A stretch of DNA of 64,000 nucleotides from Candidatus Binatia bacterium. Its GTDB lineage: Bacteria > Desulfobacterota > Binatia > HRBIN30. Of this stretch, positions 16,511 through 24,971 are shown piece by piece (position 1 is the stretch's first letter; each line of letters starts with the position of its first letter). The stretch covers positions 372,001 to 436,000 of the forward strand of contig JAOAHD010000002.1 of assembly GCA_026415395.1 (NCBI GenBank), in the 5' to 3' direction. A program made the position numbers and the translations under genes. The notes under the pieces are model-generated. The model saw only the letters and a program-made list of their open reading frames with translations, had not been told where the DNA came from and did not search any database.

Positions 16511-18505
16511 ATGCGGAGGGAAGGAGTCGGTCGATTAGGCATCGCTCTCGTTGTCTGCTCCCTTCTTGTGTTGGGAGCAAGGCAAATCCGCGCCGAGGAG
16601 TGCTCGAATAGCTTTTCGAGCACGTTTGAGCTGATTCAGCGGGCGATCTTCGAAAACAAGGGATGCACGAATCAGGTTTGTCACGGAGAGGCTCGCGCCG
16701 GCGGATTGGACTTACGAGCCGAGGCGGCGTACCAGAATTTGATCGACGTATCCTCGCCTATCTTGCCAGGGTGGAAACGGGTGGTCCCCGGGCGGCGGGA
16801 TTTGAGCCTGCTCTTTATCAACCTCGCCGCGAAAACGTTGCCGGGACAGTACCAGGCGCCACTGCGTGCCATGCCGCTCGACCCACTTCCTGCGCTGAGC
16901 CGGGATGAGTTGGAGGCCATTCGCCGTTGGGTGGAAGCGGGGGCACCGAAGGATGGCGTGGTGGCAGGCACGGGGGAGCTCCTCGACGCTTGCTTGCCGC
17001 CGCCGGAGCCTATTGCCATCAAGCCGCTCGATCCGCCGCCGCCTGGCACGGGTGTACAGATTCGCATGCCCCCATACACCCTGGCCCCACATTCTGAGCG
17101 CGAAACTTGTTTCGTGAGTTACTACGATGTCAGTGATCAGGTTCCCGAGGAATTCCGCGGGCCGGACGGGAAGACGTTCCGCTACAAGCGCAATGAAATT
17201 CGGCAAGATCCGCTGAGCCACCACTTGATCGTTAGCTTGTACACGGGCAACACGCCGCCCAACGATCCTGCTTGGGGGGAATTTTCTTGCCACGGTGGGG
17301 ACAAAGAGGGTACGCCCTGCGACCCCACGGATTTGACGTTTTGCGGTGAGGGGCTTTGCTCGACGACTCCGGTGAACAGCATCGCCTGTATTGGGTTTGG
17401 CCCGCAGGACTTGAATTTGGGGTTGGCCTCCTCGGGTTTCACGGGAACTCAGGAGACCGCTTCGGAATTTAACTTTCCACCGGGGGTTTATCGCGAGGTG
17501 CCCATCCGGGGCATGATCATTTGGAACTCACACGCCTTTAATTTGACAGACAAGCCGGGCTTACTGCGTGCCTGGCTCAATTTCGAGTTTGCCCCGCGCG
17601 AAGAGCAGATCACCCCCTCGCTGCAGATCTTCGATACGCGGACGATCTTCAAGATGACCCCAGTTCCCCCCTTCCAAACCAAGGAAGTGTGCAGCCACTA
17701 CACGATCCCGCGCTTTGCTCGTCTCTTTGAGTTGAGCTCGCACGCGCACAAGCGTATGAAACGATGGCGCACGTTCGAAGGCGAATTCGCTTGTCAAGGT
17801 GGCCCGGCAAGCGGGCAAGCCTGCAGCCCCCTGGGCTACGACTTCTCTAGCCCCGACGTTTGCCAAGGCTACCCATGCAAGGCATTCAAGCGCCAACGGG
17901 CGGGTGACTGCGATGAAGATGGTCAGGTGGTTGTAAGCGAGCTGGTCAAAGCAGTGCGGATTGCTCTGGGGGACGACAGCGTGCGCGCCTGCGTGGATGC
18001 TGACGTGAACGACGATGCGCAAATCACCGTAGAGGAAATCTTGCGCGGCGTGAACTCCGTGCTTACGGGCGTTCCCGCGCCAGTGGAGCGCGACCCCAAC
18101 GAAAGTCTCCTGTATGTGAGCCTGATTTACAACGACCCCGTTGTCCTACCCTTCAATCCGCCGCGGAAGTACGACGCGGTCTCCGACAGCGAGCGTACGT
18201 TTACCTATTGCGCACTGTACGACAACGGATTCATCGATCCTGAGGAGGTCAAGCGGAAGTCGACCTCCCCTGTGCCGCCCGTCCCCATTCCCGGGGTTGG
18301 CGGCCCCTGTCAGCAGCCGACCCACTGTGTGGCGGGTAAAGTTGGGGCGCCCTGCTCTGGGAACAATCAGCGGCAGCGGAACGCCTCCTGCGACAGTTCG
18401 CCGGGAGCGGGCGACGGGCTTTGTGATGCCTGCCCCCTCACTGGCGGTGTCACCACCGAAGACGAGATGTTCATCTTGATGGGTCAGTACTACATCGCCC
18501 CGTAG
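16511..18505 (+). CDS. Secreted type II copper monooxygenase-like protein with CX4CH region and embedded dockerin-like pair
   Basis: 664 residues with a signal peptide (about 1-28, ending RAEE). Residues 50-160 resemble the planctomycete-type cytochrome c region (LSRDELEAIRRWVEAGAP) but carry C52-X4-C57-H58 instead of CXXCH. Downstream is a full ligand set like that of peptidylglycine/dopamine monooxygenases: adjacent H237/H238, H341 in NSHAF, H411-A-H413, and M653 in TEDEMFILMGQYY. Between the HxH and the Met sits a two-repeat EF-hand/dockerin-like module (from D466, DCDEDG, then DADVNDD). Cysteine-rich inserts of form CxGGxxxGxxC recur near 258 and 432. Start is supported by AGGAG upstream. 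Predicted to oxidise a substrate outside the cytoplasm using copper; substrate unknown. Confidence 0.7.
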   Translation: MRREGVGRLGIALVVCSLLVLGARQIRAEECSNSFSSTFELIQRAIFENKGCTNQVCHGEARAGGLDLRAEAAYQNLIDVSSPILPGWKRVVPGRRDLSLLFINLAAKTLPGQYQAPLRAMPLDPLPALSRDELEAIRRWVEAGAPKDGVVAGTGELLDACLPPPEPIAIKPLDPPPPGTGVQIRMPPYTLAPHSERETCFVSYYDVSDQVPEEFRGPDGKTFRYKRNEIRQDPLSHHLIVSLYTGNTPPNDPAWGEFSCHGGDKEGTPCDPTDLTFCGEGLCSTTPVNSIACIGFGPQDLNLGLASSGFTGTQETASEFNFPPGVYREVPIRGMIIWNSHAFNLTDKPGLLRAWLNFEFAPREEQITPSLQIFDTRTIFKMTPVPPFQTKEVCSHYTIPRFARLFELSSHAHKRMKRWRTFEGEFACQGGPASGQACSPLGYDFSSPDVCQGYPCKAFKRQRAGDCDEDGQVVVSELVKAVRIALGDDSVRACVDADVNDDAQITVEEILRGVNSVLTGVPAPVERDPNESLLYVSLIYNDPVVLPFNPPRKYDAVSDSERTFTYCALYDNGFIDPEEVKRKSTSPVPPVPIPGVGGPCQQPTHCVAGKVGAPCSGNNQRQRNASCDSSPGAGDGLCDACPLTGGVTTEDEMFILMGQYYIAP

Positions 18506-18537
18506 CCCAAAAGGTACAGGCACCAGGTTCAGCAATG

Positions 18538-18576
18538 GGGAGCCGCGATCCCGCCGGATCGTGGCTCCCTTTACTT
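18538..18576 (+). terminator. Intrinsic terminator after the copper monooxygenase-like gene
   Basis: A 13-bp stem (arms 18538-18550 and 18557-18569, one G:U wobble) closes a 6-base loop CCGCCG and is followed by TTTACTTT. It lies 33 bases after the upstream stop codon and isolates that gene from the next one. Confidence 0.7.
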
Positions 18577-20539: not shown

Positions 20540-21985
20540 TCAGCGCCCAGCCACCACGAAGTCGTCCCTCCGGGCACGAGCACTGAGCGCGTGCCATACT
20601 CGATCAGCGGCTTGATGGCCGGAGTGGATGCAATCCGGGAGGCCAACGCCGCGGTACGAGTTGCCCGCCAGTGCGAGCGTGGGCTCGCGGGCAATCAACT
20701 CCTCGATCGCTCGAACCTTTTCCAGATGGCCCACCTCGTACAACGGCATCGTTTCCGGGTACCGGTGGATTCTCGCCAGCAGCGGCGGCGCGTCGATGCC
20801 CAACAGCGGTTCAAGTTCTTGCCGCACGCAACGCACGAGCTGCTCATCTTCCCAATCCATGAGCGGGCGCTCCTCGCTACCACCCAAGAATGCGCGGATG
20901 AGGATCGTGCCGTCCGGCGCACGATACGGGTACTTGAGGTGACTCAACGTGCACGCCCAGGTGTGCAACCTTTCGGTGCGCGGAATCACGACGCCAAAAC
21001 CGCTGACAGCCGTTTGCAACGCTCCCGCAGGGTAGGCCAGGTTCACGGTGAGGGAGGGAATGGTTTCGATGCGGGAGAGCCGCTGCGCCAAGGCGGGAGC
21101 GGCTGTGTCGAGAAGGGCCGCCGCCCGGGGCGCAGGCACGGCGAGAATGACGGCGTCCGCCTCGAGCACTTCACCGTCGCGAGTAAGGACACGCCACAGC
21201 TCTCGTTGGCGCTCAATGCGCGCCACTGTGGTGGAGCACCGCACCTCCGCCTTGCTCAGGCGCTGCGCCAGGGTGTCGACGAAAAGCTGCAGCCCTTGAT
21301 CAAAGGAGGCAAACAAACTCCATCGAGCACCGGAACCCGTGGTGCGCCCCGCGCGTGCTTGGGCGCGCATGGCGAGAATGACACTCCGCTGCTGTTCCTC
21401 CATGGCGAGAAACCGGGGCATGGTTGCCCGCAAACTGAGCCGGCGAGCATCGGCGAGGTAAATGCCTCCAACCAGCGGTTGGGCAATCCGCTCCACTGCT
21501 TCGCGCCCAAAACGCCGCTCAACAAACGAAGCCAAGCTCTCGTCCGCACCAGATCCTCCGCGTGGCAACAACACCTCTGCCGCCATTCGCAACTTGCCCC
21601 ACCAGGAGAACAACCCTGAGGTCGCAAATGGCCAGAACTTGGTGGGGGCGAGAAGCAAAAATCCGTCGGGCAGCGGGTGAAGCTTGCCTCCCCGAGCCAC
21701 GTAGGTGCGGCGGAATGCGTCGTTGGTTCCCACGAGGTGCCGCTCGAGTCCCAGGGCGCGCGCGAGCTCCAACGCCCACGGCTTCTCGGTCAGAAAAGAG
21801 TCCGGCCCACCTTCGAGGAGAAACCCCTGCACATGTTCGGTGCGAATCGCACCGCCGAGCCGCGGCGTAGCCTCTAACAAGGTCACACCCGGACGTACGC
21901 CTCCCTTCTCTGCGCAAACAAGCAGGCGGTGCGCGGCGGCCAGCCCTGCAATGCCTCCCCCGATCACGACAATCCGGGGTGTCAT
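20540..21985 (-). CDS. hemY: Protoporphyrinogen oxidase, oxygen-dependent (HemY/PPOX)
   Basis: 481 residues. It oxidises protoporphyrinogen IX to protoporphyrin IX with FAD and O2. The N-terminal dinucleotide fold IVVIGGGIAGLAAAHRL and the second motif ATPRLGGAI are clear. EGGPDSFLTEKPWALELARALGLE and GGIYLADARRLSLRATMP are typical PPOX segments, and the end has LALAGNSYRGVGLPDCIHSG. Its ATG overlaps the stop of hemH in an ATGA, so it is translationally coupled to ferrochelatase, the next enzyme in the pathway. This form implies an aerobic lifestyle. Confidence 0.93.
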   Translation of the reverse strand: MTPRIVVIGGGIAGLAAAHRLLVCAEKGGVRPGVTLLEATPRLGGAIRTEHVQGFLLEGGPDSFLTEKPWALELARALGLERHLVGTNDAFRRTYVARGGKLHPLPDGFLLLAPTKFWPFATSGLFSWWGKLRMAAEVLLPRGGSGADESLASFVERRFGREAVERIAQPLVGGIYLADARRLSLRATMPRFLAMEEQQRSVILAMRAQARAGRTTGSGARWSLFASFDQGLQLFVDTLAQRLSKAEVRCSTTVARIERQRELWRVLTRDGEVLEADAVILAVPAPRAAALLDTAAPALAQRLSRIETIPSLTVNLAYPAGALQTAVSGFGVVIPRTERLHTWACTLSHLKYPYRAPDGTILIRAFLGGSEERPLMDWEDEQLVRCVRQELEPLLGIDAPPLLARIHRYPETMPLYEVGHLEKVRAIEELIAREPTLALAGNSYRGVGLPDCIHSGHQAADRVWHALSARARRDDFVVAGR

Positions 21986-22911
21986 GTCGATCCTGCCTCC
22001 ACGTGCTCGCAGACGATATCCGCGAGCATCCGGATGAATGCTGAATGCTCGCCTACCGTGCGCGCACGGATAAAGCGCAGCCCGCTAGATTCGGCAGTTT
22101 TCCGGGCCACCATGTCTAGGTCATACAGGACCTCGACATGGTCGCATACAAAGCCCAGGGGCGCAACCACAACGGCCTGGGTGCCCTCACGGGCAAGACG
22201 CAGCAGGCATTCAGAAATATCCGGCTCGAGCCAAGGTTCCGTCGGCGGCCCACTGCGGCTTTGGAAAGCAAGCTCCCATCTGTCGTGCGCCAGCCGTCGA
22301 CAAACCGCTGCGGCGGTCTCCTCGAGCTGGGCAACGTAAGGGGAACCGGCTGCCATCCGTTGCGGCAGGCTGTGAGCGGTAAACACCACGGGTACCGTCG
22401 GCCGTTGCGGTTCGGGAAACTCTCCGAGTGCTTGGGCGACATTACACGCCACTGCTTCCCGGAAGCCAGGGCGATCATACCAGCAGGGGCCGATGTCCAC
22501 TTGCGGTGCCGTCTCGCCAAGTTCGGCACGGGCATCGGCGACGTCGGCGACGTAACGATCCCATCCTGCCTCGGACCTTTGCGGCGACAAGATGATGCCT
22601 ACGGCACGTTTGTGCCCCCGCTTGTACATCGCAGCCAAAGTTTCGCTCAGAAATGGATGCCAATTCCGCATGCCGATGTAGACCGGCAACTCCAAGCCGC
22701 GGAACCACAACTCGGCCTGCAAGCGTTTGGCTTGGCGCTCGGTGATTTCCGGTAGCGGCGAGCGCCCGCCCACCGCGAGGTAGTTGTTGCGGACCTCGGC
22801 GAGCCGATGCGCGGGCACGTTGCGGCCGCGGACGACGCGGGCAAGAAACGGGTCGATTTCTTCCGGGGCACGAGGGCCGCCAAACGCGATCAACAGGACT
22901 GCATCGTACAT
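21982..22911 (-). CDS. hemH: Ferrochelatase
   Basis: 309 residues, compact compared with many family members (320-360). It inserts Fe2+ into protoporphyrin IX. Visible features: LLIAFGGP opening, NNYLAVGGRSPLPEIT, the YIGMRNWHPF segment with the His of the active site, VVFTAHSLPQRM, and AFQSRSGPPTEPWLEPDI with the conserved Gln-Ser-Arg. The open frame continues far upstream through hemE sequence, so I set the ATG at MYDAVLLIAFG. It lies 32 bases after hemE and overlaps hemY by 4 bases. Confidence 0.93.
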   Translation of the reverse strand: MYDAVLLIAFGGPRAPEEIDPFLARVVRGRNVPAHRLAEVRNNYLAVGGRSPLPEITERQAKRLQAELWFRGLELPVYIGMRNWHPFLSETLAAMYKRGHKRAVGIILSPQRSEAGWDRYVADVADARAELGETAPQVDIGPCWYDRPGFREAVACNVAQALGEFPEPQRPTVPVVFTAHSLPQRMAAGSPYVAQLEETAAAVCRRLAHDRWELAFQSRSGPPTEPWLEPDISECLLRLAREGTQAVVVAPLGFVCDHVEVLYDLDMVARKTAESSGLRFIRARTVGEHSAFIRMLADIVCEHVEAGST

Positions 22912-22943
22912 AGTGCCGAGCGTACCTGTGTTTGTGTGGGAGT

Positions 22944-23981
22944 CTAGGCGTGGCTGCGTGTTGCGCGGCTGTACTCGTGCACGAAGTCCACCAGCGCCCG
23001 CACGTTGTCCACTGGGGTTGGCGGCAAGACGCCGTGACCAAGGTTGAAGATGTGTCCCGGCCGGGTGCCCACGCGATCGAGGATGTGGCGGGCTTGGCTG
23101 AGCAACGCCTCCCGTGGCCCCAGCAAAGCGACCGGGTCGAGGTTGCCCTGCACCGCCCGATCGAAGCCCACGCGCTGCCACCCGTCGGCAAGGTCGACGC
23201 GCCAGTCGAGCCCGATCACGGTGCCCCCCGCCTCGCGGAGGAGCTCGAGGAGGCCCGCGGTGCCCGTGCCGAAATGAATGACAGGAACTTCCGCAGGCAG
23301 TGCCGCAAATAGTCTTTGCATGTGCGGTAGAACGAAGCGGCGATAATCCTGCGGCGACAGGCAGCCCACCCAACTGTCGAACACCTGCACAGCATCTGCT
23401 CCGGCAGCGATTTGCCGCCGCAAGTACGAAGCCACATTGTCCACCAGCAACTCCATTAACGTCTGCCACGCCTTGGGTGCCCGGTACATCAGAGTTTTCG
23501 TGTGCGCGTAGTGTCGCGAGCCACCACCCTCGATGAGATACGATGCGAGTGTGAACGGTGCGCCGGAGAAGCCAATCAACGGTACCCGAAGGCTGGCCCG
23601 CGCTAGTCGCACCGCTTCGTACACGTAAGGGAGTTCCGCTGCCGCATCGATGCGGGGAAGCCTTTGGACATCTTCTGGGCTGCGCACCGGGCGGTGGATG
23701 ATCGGCCCATCGTTGCGGGAGTATTCCAAACTGATTCCGAGCGGATCTAACAGCAGCAGGATGTCGGCAAAGAGGATGGCTGCATCCACCCCGAGCTGGT
23801 GGACGGCGGTAACCGTCACTTCAGCCGCAGCAGCGGGAGTTCGGCAGAGTTCCAGAAAGCTGTAGCGCCCACGTATCTGCCGGTACTCCGGCATGTAACG
23901 GCCGGCTTGCCGCATAAGCCAAATTGGGGTGTAGGCTACGGGCAAACGCCGGCAGGCGGCGAGGAATGTCGAATTGCTCAC
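22944..23981 (-). CDS. hemE: Uroporphyrinogen decarboxylase
   Basis: 345 residues from a GTG start (VSNSTFLAACRR), matching the family N-terminus. It removes four carboxyl groups from uroporphyrinogen III. The substrate-binding motif TPIWLMRQAGRYMPEY with the conserved Arg pair is near residue 25, and the second signature GFSGAPFTLASYLIEG is present. An in-frame TTG 42 bases upstream is possible but adds residues unlike the family. It sits between hemD and hemH in the pathway order. Confidence 0.94.
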   Translation of the reverse strand: MSNSTFLAACRRLPVAYTPIWLMRQAGRYMPEYRQIRGRYSFLELCRTPAAAAEVTVTAVHQLGVDAAILFADILLLLDPLGISLEYSRNDGPIIHRPVRSPEDVQRLPRIDAAAELPYVYEAVRLARASLRVPLIGFSGAPFTLASYLIEGGGSRHYAHTKTLMYRAPKAWQTLMELLVDNVASYLRRQIAAGADAVQVFDSWVGCLSPQDYRRFVLPHMQRLFAALPAEVPVIHFGTGTAGLLELLREAGGTVIGLDWRVDLADGWQRVGFDRAVQGNLDPVALLGPREALLSQARHILDRVGTRPGHIFNLGHGVLPPTPVDNVRALVDFVHEYSRATRSHA

Positions 23982-24092
23982 AGTGCGGGTTGTGTAGAGC
24001 GAAATGCTGCCTAGGTAAAGCAAGCCGCGCGCGTTGCTGTCGGGGATGGCCGCAAGCTGGTAGACTGCAGGTTTGCGTGTAGCGCCGCCGCC

Positions 24093-24971
24093 TTACGCCG
24101 CCCGTTTGTGGGCGAGGCAGGCCCGCGCCCGGCGCGCCAGTAGATGCGCGAGCACGCCCATTTTCGGCGGTGCAGCCTCTAAATCAGGCTCGACGCCATG
24201 ATGCCGCAAAGCTTGCGAGCAAACCGGACCGACAGATGCCACCACCATGCGCCGCAATTGCTCCTGCCAGCGTTGGAGCTCGGGTTCGAACTCGCCTTCT
24301 ACGAACGCCCACACGTTGTGCACTTGGTTCGCGCTGGTGAACACCGCCACCGCGGCCTTGCCCTCGAGGATCGTGCGAATGCCTTGGCGGAGCGGCAATA
24401 GATCTTGCGGGTACTCCCAGCGGTAAATGGCAATGCTGTGTACTGCGGCGCCGCGTCGTCCCAGCTCCCGAAGCAGCTCGTCGTTCGGCAACCCGTATTC
24501 GTGCACGGCCACCGTTTTGCCGGCAACGGGCAGCTCGCGGTCAACCAGCGCCAAGATTTCGCGCCAGGTGTACGGTTCCGGCACGACCTTGTCCGGTAGA
24601 AGGCCGAGCTCGCGCAGCGCAGCCACGGGCTTCGGCCCGCGGGCGAGCAGCGTGGCTCGGCGCAGGGCCTCAGCCACCTCTGGCGCAGAAAGCTGGTCGC
24701 TCACTTGTCGCACCAGCGTTCGCAACCCCACCCCCGTGAGTAAGATGACAACGTCGAAATGGCCTTGCCGGAGCTGCTCCACGTAAGCAATCAATTCGTC
24801 GCGATTGTCCCGAGGGAGCTCGCGCATCGCCGGAGCCGAAACGGGGATGCCGCCGTGGCGGCGAATCATCTCAGCCAGTTCTGCCGCACGGCGGCTCTCG
24901 AATGCGACCACCACGAGCTCGTGCAAACCGCCAGTGCTTGGATTGCCGTCGTGCAAATTTTCAACGGACAT
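24093..24971 (-). CDS. hemD: Uroporphyrinogen-III synthase
   Basis: 292 residues. HemD cyclises hydroxymethylbilane with inversion of ring D. The family is poorly conserved, but the bilobed architecture is clear: FESRRAAELAEMIRRHGG, VILLTGVGLRTLV, ARGPKPVAALRELGL, VAVHEYG and the C-terminal VFTSANQVHNV and VASVGPVCSQALRHHGVEP. These phrases match the GxGPxTaxALxxxGxxP pattern of the family twice, as expected for the pseudo-duplicated fold. It lies 11 bases after the TPR gene and upstream of hemE, which supports the call. Confidence 0.87.
   Translation of the reverse strand: MSVENLHDGNPSTGGLHELVVVAFESRRAAELAEMIRRHGGIPVSAPAMRELPRDNRDELIAYVEQLRQGHFDVVILLTGVGLRTLVRQVSDQLSAPEVAEALRRATLLARGPKPVAALRELGLLPDKVVPEPYTWREILALVDRELPVAGKTVAVHEYGLPNDELLRELGRRGAAVHSIAIYRWEYPQDLLPLRQGIRTILEGKAAVAVFTSANQVHNVWAFVEGEFEPELQRWQEQLRRMVVASVGPVCSQALRHHGVEPDLEAAPPKMGVLAHLLARRARACLAHKRAA

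Follow-up and report, generated by a model that had tools for sequence, protein, structure and literature searches.

The gene at positions 16511 to 18505 of the window, i.e. the whole 64,000-nucleotide stretch of Binatia DNA analysed here, probably encodes an exported, divergent type II dicopper monooxygenase of the PHM/DBM fold. A c-type cytochrome-like domain is fused to its N terminus, with the heme as likely electron donor. The assignment draws on computed homology, a modelled fold, conservation of the ligands and a relation of the heme domain to cytochromes, with an insertion in the core that is optional within the family; metal binding, electron path and hydroxylation are predicted from these features.

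The ATG of the ORF is also the start used by the two closest homologues, L021 and L022. The closest relatives of the protein share 88 and 89% identity with it (Candidatus Binatia bacterium, Bacterium HR30), and its own genome contains one full-length paralogue of 59% identity. A signal peptide, as read from the sequence, marks the product as an exported protein. The first-pass annotation had laid out C52-X4-C57-H58, H237/H238, H341, H411-x-H413, an EF-hand pair at about residues 463-523 and M653 in this order, and every one of them is found in place in the ORF; the context of M653 reads TTEDEMFILMGQYY. The features are as follows.

16511..18505, + strand: whole gene of the exported heme-copper protein, an open ORF of 664 aa
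16511..16594, + strand: signal peptide, residues ~1-28, read from the sequence
16616..16954, + strand: c-type cytochrome-like (PSCyt1-related) domain, residues ~36-148, from profile alignment
16664..16684, + strand: putative CX4CH heme motif, C52-H58, kept in 113 of 116 ORFs, the remainder being gaps
16871..16873, + strand: M121, presumed distal heme ligand, in 113 of 116 ORFs; MP invariant in 24 of 24
17015..17785, + strand: first part of the PHM-like core, residues 169-425, from the predicted model and structure comparison
17219..17224, + strand: H237-H238, putative CuH ligands, from sequence bridge and census
17531..17533, + strand: H341, putative CuH ligand, from sequence bridge and census
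17741..17749, + strand: H411-x-H413, putative CuM ligands, from sequence bridge and census
17786..18103, + strand: insertion, residues ~426-531, with the second CxGG unit and the dockerin-like pair, delimited against dockerin-free homologues
17897..18079, + strand: dockerin-like EF-hand pair, residues 463-523, from sub-threshold Pfam matches and many similar copies in the genome
18104..18502, + strand: last part of the PHM-like core, residues 532-664, from VIA structure alignment
18467..18469, + strand: M653, putative CuM ligand, from sequence bridge and census
18537..18570, + strand: terminator-like hairpin of 15 pairs 3' of the gene; such hairpins total 3 in the region, not above the shuffled mean of 3.4

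The ligand pattern of type II copper monooxygenases (HH and H for CuH, HxH and M for CuM) is present in the required order. Alignment A2 comprises 23 divergent members with and without the dockerin-like pair, the earlier alignment having comprised 16 close members. Exactly six His are invariant in it, one in the heme motif and five proposed as copper ligands, and exactly two Met, those of the MP and DEM motifs. At each of C52, C57, H58, M121, H237, H238 and M653 the residue is retained in 113 of the 116 distinct ORFs of the family census, at H341, H411 and H413 in 112. Wherever it is missing there is a gap, in six truncated, fragmentary or heme-only ORFs, and with 112-113 ORFs covered per site not a single ligand is substituted. 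This agrees with the earlier judgement that six ligands in order are more than chance. M382 is invariant among the 16 close members, yet is M in only 43 of 112 census ORFs, and was dropped as a candidate for a further ligand.

The census was counted after leaving out 29 loci (L093-L111, L114-L119, L121, L123, L059 and L068), most of which came from the searches of other families, but L111 belongs to the family of the window protein; where an organism has two records, nearly identical copies may still be among the ORFs counted. Subtraction of L003, the second ORF of L112, L034 and L036 from the 116 ORFs gives the 112 used for the tree and the CX4CH count. Rows of alignments A2, A5 and A6 were chosen by eye.

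The AlphaFold2 model, built from 16 sequences, has a mean pLDDT of 69.3, with residues 1-163 below 50 and 401 of 664 residues at 70 or above. All 20 best Foldseek matches of the model in the PDB are DBH or PHM, the best being DBH (4zel, E 1.5e-7). The structure prediction and alignment proposed in the first-pass annotation come out in favour of its assignment: modelled residues 169-664 superpose on the whole PHM core, with a VIA Z of 12.6-16.4 and an rmsd of 3.4-4.3 over 241-270 aligned residues in 26 PHM/DBH entries (for 4zel Z 16.4 over 270 residues, rmsd 3.8). Rat PHM (1phm, 1opm, 1sdw) shares with the window protein the complete two-domain core and the six copper ligands in order. The next-best unrelated VIA entry is a PNGase (Z 7.9). 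PMC8812541 describes the fold of PHM as a double jelly-roll, which PNGase, capsid proteins and DUF2961 also have, so structure matches to these are to be expected. A double jelly-roll core of the PHM type is thus present in the predicted model of the window protein.

Sequence searches with the window protein itself are nearly silent. It lies below the curated cut-off of PF03712, which is a detection threshold and not a biochemical trait, and gives no match to that family; Pfam and NCBIfam return nothing except a weak EF-hand match, and a direct PDB search provides no useful match and none to PHM. Profile searches of the PDB with A1, A4 and A5 reach neither PHM nor a confident cytochrome. L094 alone finds no PHM in the PDB, and aligns weakly with A5 (probability 77). 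In NCBIfam the relatives have only sub-threshold matches, including those of the L121 and L103 heme domains to a diheme cytochrome family, the exception being one repeat over cut-off in L039.

The bridge to PHM leads through PF03712-positive relatives of the same class. Six of 19 dockerin-free cores match PF03712 below its cut-off (best E 0.0028), and a PF03712 search of 145 class genomes yields matches in 20 at E 0.01 or better, 16 of them over cut-off. Alignment A6 combines 17 of the 30 PF03712 loci; among the 13 left out, five are members of the window's family. The BLASTP alignment of the window protein with L121 (E 1e-28) extends over both the heme domain and the core; HH, H, HxH and EDEM are matched, the Met in a short segment of its own. 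The A2 profile aligns with nearly the whole length of L121 (E 3.5e-38), DEM included. The profile of A5, i.e. of dockerin-free cores, matches A6 with a probability of 99.2 (E 1.3e-19), in an alignment that ends before the Met. A6 in turn, as the only profile to reach PHM, matches rat PHM at E 5.9e-18 with the HH, H, HxH and Met columns aligned. Ligand conservation, model fold and this sequence bridge together point to a divergent type II copper monooxygenase that the Pfam cut-off misses, and the PHM/DBM-type assignment of the earlier annotation is supported on the latter two counts. A chance likeness to PHM ligands in an unrelated protein would fit the absence of a direct Pfam or PDB sequence match, but is contradicted by fold, bridge and conservation and is hardly credible.

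In the 17 aligned PF03712-positive relatives, which stand outside the census, all five copper His are invariant, whereas the position of the Met ligand is occupied by His in 14. Sequences of L094-L098, L101-L104, L106-L108, L116 and L117 show NEHC or QEHC in place of DEMC, and KEHC in one case. Such a His would create an all-His CuM site, and the CuM site therefore varies among relatives. Homologues that lose ligands while keeping the rest, named earlier as grounds for rejection, are absent from the family census and present among these distant relatives as the exchange of Met for His. The relatives with a CX4CH domain in front of the core have no dockerin-like insertion between HxH and this position.

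It is unlikely that the PHM-like fold and its ligands serve to bind or store copper, or have a structural role, instead of supporting monooxygenation: the six ligands of both sites remain unsubstituted even between members with identities of about 50% or below, a constancy that storage would not require. Such a role would agree with the lack of PHM substrate residues and with the neighbouring genes, in whose ORFs, read by eye, no substrate clue was seen. As both copper sites are complete, the protein most likely performs chemistry of the PHM type.

The N-terminal CX4CH region is part of a domain that resembles c-type cytochromes and is related to PSCyt1 (PF07635), a context that the first-pass annotation, which had correctly recorded the motif, did not give. 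Both Cys, the His and the M-P motif are invariant in 24 of 24 sequences, and CX4CH occurs in 111 of 112 members, the remaining one being without its N terminus. The hhalign probability of the heme-domain profile is 97.1 against the CXXCH domain of L093, which exceeds the PSCyt1 cut-off, and 99.1 against the CX4CH sister domain of L093. In the former alignment the two residues missing from CXXCH relative to CX4CH fall inside the heme motif. The window heme domain is thus homologous to PSCyt1 by hhalign and shares with it the Met-Pro and a Trp-Ile near the end, but has CX4CH for CXXCH and remains under the Pfam cut-off: PSCyt1 has no match over cut-off for the window protein or its own genome, and matches one of 12 relatives. 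By computation the domain is related to c-type cytochromes, and it is predicted to bind heme. Modelled alone it is poorly predicted (mean pLDDT 49.6), and VIA gives no match of note. Three PF01578 matches (cytochrome c assembly, heme attachment) exceed the cut-off in the own genome.

The family does not possess the canonical CXXCH; it has CX4CH instead, a known variant spacing. It is very unlikely that the domain no longer binds heme, with its two Cys forming a disulfide in a purely structural module. The non-canonical spacing and the lack of a confident model would suit that explanation, but neither the heme His nor the presumed distal Met varies, CXXCH and CX4CH sisters occur side by side in L093, and CX4CH is counted as a c-type heme-binding motif in PMC10734462 and PMC5566968, both on iron oxidisers.

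Further arrangements of the module are found in the class. L093:586-1758 (-) contains a canonical CXXCH PSCyt1 domain and the homologous CX4CH domain, i.e. both spacings in one protein. L059:220-2690 (+) has two CX4CH modules in alternation with lysyl-oxidase domains (two stretches matching PF01186, E 1.6e-12). Two small proteins of the own genome lack a copper core: L003:1501-2253 (+) has two tandem CX4CH domains, L012:1504-1836 (-) a dockerin-like pair with one CX4CH domain.

The heme domain precedes the copper core across the family, and the architecture, described earlier as a novel domain chimera, is a recurring one. The same order of CX4CH heme domain and PHM-like core occurs in the PF03712 proteins L121, L115, L101-L104, L106, L097 and L098 of the class, i.e. 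in nine of the 17 A6 proteins. The other eight are without a CX4CH domain, one of them (L095) being cut at the contig end. Together with the mobility of the module, which is combined with lysyl-oxidase domains in L059 and stands alone in tandem in L003, this gives some weight to another explanation. Here the protein is a copper monooxygenase whose heme domain serves sensing, binding or structure, with a diffusible reductant as in PHM. This is rather unlikely, though less so than the other alternatives, and the constancy of the heme-copper fusion within the family (every member with an intact N terminus) speaks against it.

The dockerin-like insertion is confined to part of the family. In dockerin-free homologues the HxH strand leads over a short turn to the strand before YNDP, and in the window protein residues ~426-531 stand in place of this turn. 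Counted from the second His of HxH, the Met is 225-242 residues away in the 36 rows that have the pair, and 128-181 in the 55 that lack it. The pair was found in 42 of 112 homologues, 36 of them by a pattern located between HxH and DEM and six by a profile match anywhere in the ORF; homologues with the same insertion, as sought in the first-pass annotation, thus exist, with the insertion being optional and not constant in the family. Its distribution needs two changes on a tree of the 112 members, calculated with the insertion excluded by a quick method that carries a long-branch warning. The insertion had been placed between the two copper sites. This position has to be corrected, because H413 and M653, which flank it, are presumably both CuM ligands by PHM numbering, and the insertion falls inside the CuM ligand set.

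Type I dockerin (PF00404) possesses two EF-hand-like loops, as does the insertion, which differs in being placed inside an enzyme core. Among close members four of 16 match PF00404 (best E 0.0054) and the type I cut-off is not reached. Dozens of ORFs in the own genome contain dockerin-like pairs, and 49 of 55 matches in the own-genome search concern the dockerin-like part alone. Against these 49 places stands one cohesin match over cut-off (L184); its open frame has 774 aa, exactly as many as that of a nearby dockerin-like match. A cellulosome role of the insertion is not favoured, as 49 of the 55 matches are dockerin-like only, even though the one cohesin match exists. The insertion is probably an accessory element, stabilised by calcium, for structure or docking.

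In the proposed mechanism H237, H238 and H341 would bind CuH, and H411, H413 and M653 CuM, where activation of O2 would result in hydroxylation of an organic substrate. The CX4CH/Met heme domain would receive electrons from a donor in the periplasm or outside the cell and hand them on to the copper core, most likely in place of free ascorbate as reductant. Compared with PHM, the window family has the additional heme domain and, between HxH and Met, a long Cys-rich stretch besides the optional dockerin-like insertion. DBH has a DOMON domain in front of its core, the window family a c-type cytochrome-like one. In PHM, R240, N316 and Y318 are the residues of the substrate peptide carboxylate. At the corresponding places the family has R in 0 of 91, N in 6 of 93 and Y in 0 of 93 sequences. 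The family is therefore distinct from PHM proper (peptide amidation), and since these residues are not kept, a glycine-extended peptide is not the expected substrate of the window protein.

The family is multicopy in Binatia. At 1e-60 or better it is present in 39 of 145 class genomes (at most eight candidates per genome scored), and matches at 1e-20 occur in 44; among the five weaker ones, G208 has a protein of heme and lysyl-oxidase domains. In the order, 12 of 15 genomes match at 1e-20, that protein of G208 included. G199 contains 13 distinct members (15 match rows). An even sample of the phylum gives matches in four of 198 genomes, all in the class Binatia, and beyond the phylum the coverage consists of one peptide-pattern scan with the window protein. 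The gene neighbourhood is conserved in two close relatives. Downstream, at window positions 20540-24971 (-), follow ORFs that resemble heme-biosynthesis genes, by eye protoporphyrinogen oxidase, ferrochelatase, and uroporphyrinogen decarboxylase and synthase.

A search of the open-access literature found no paper on a heme-fused copper hydroxylase family, which does not show absence from print. The main text of the Binatota genome paper (PMC8262859) contains none of the terms peptidylglycine, dopamine, ascorbate and dockerin. Ordinary annotation would miss the family, because the scanned members fall below the Pfam cut-off; it is a large family of mostly uncultured bacteria not yet recognised by protein databases.

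A wider reading, which we offer tentatively, is that the family represents a lineage-expanded set of heme-wired, ascorbate-independent dicopper hydroxylases. These would be exported with their own c-type donor and would oxidise environmental small molecules, some of them with calcium-binding pairs in the copper core.

The classic two-copper enzymes PHM and DBM have been described mostly from animals, and it has long been asked how electrons travel from one of their widely separated coppers to the other. Because such a core is here fused by nature to a c-type cytochrome-like domain, the protein would provide a spectroscopic handle on electron delivery. The findings suggest bacterial PHM/DBM-type chemistry independent of ascorbate. 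If this is true, Binatia hold a bacterial PHM/DBM branch with a built-in reductase. The family may extend what is known of their oxidation capacity.
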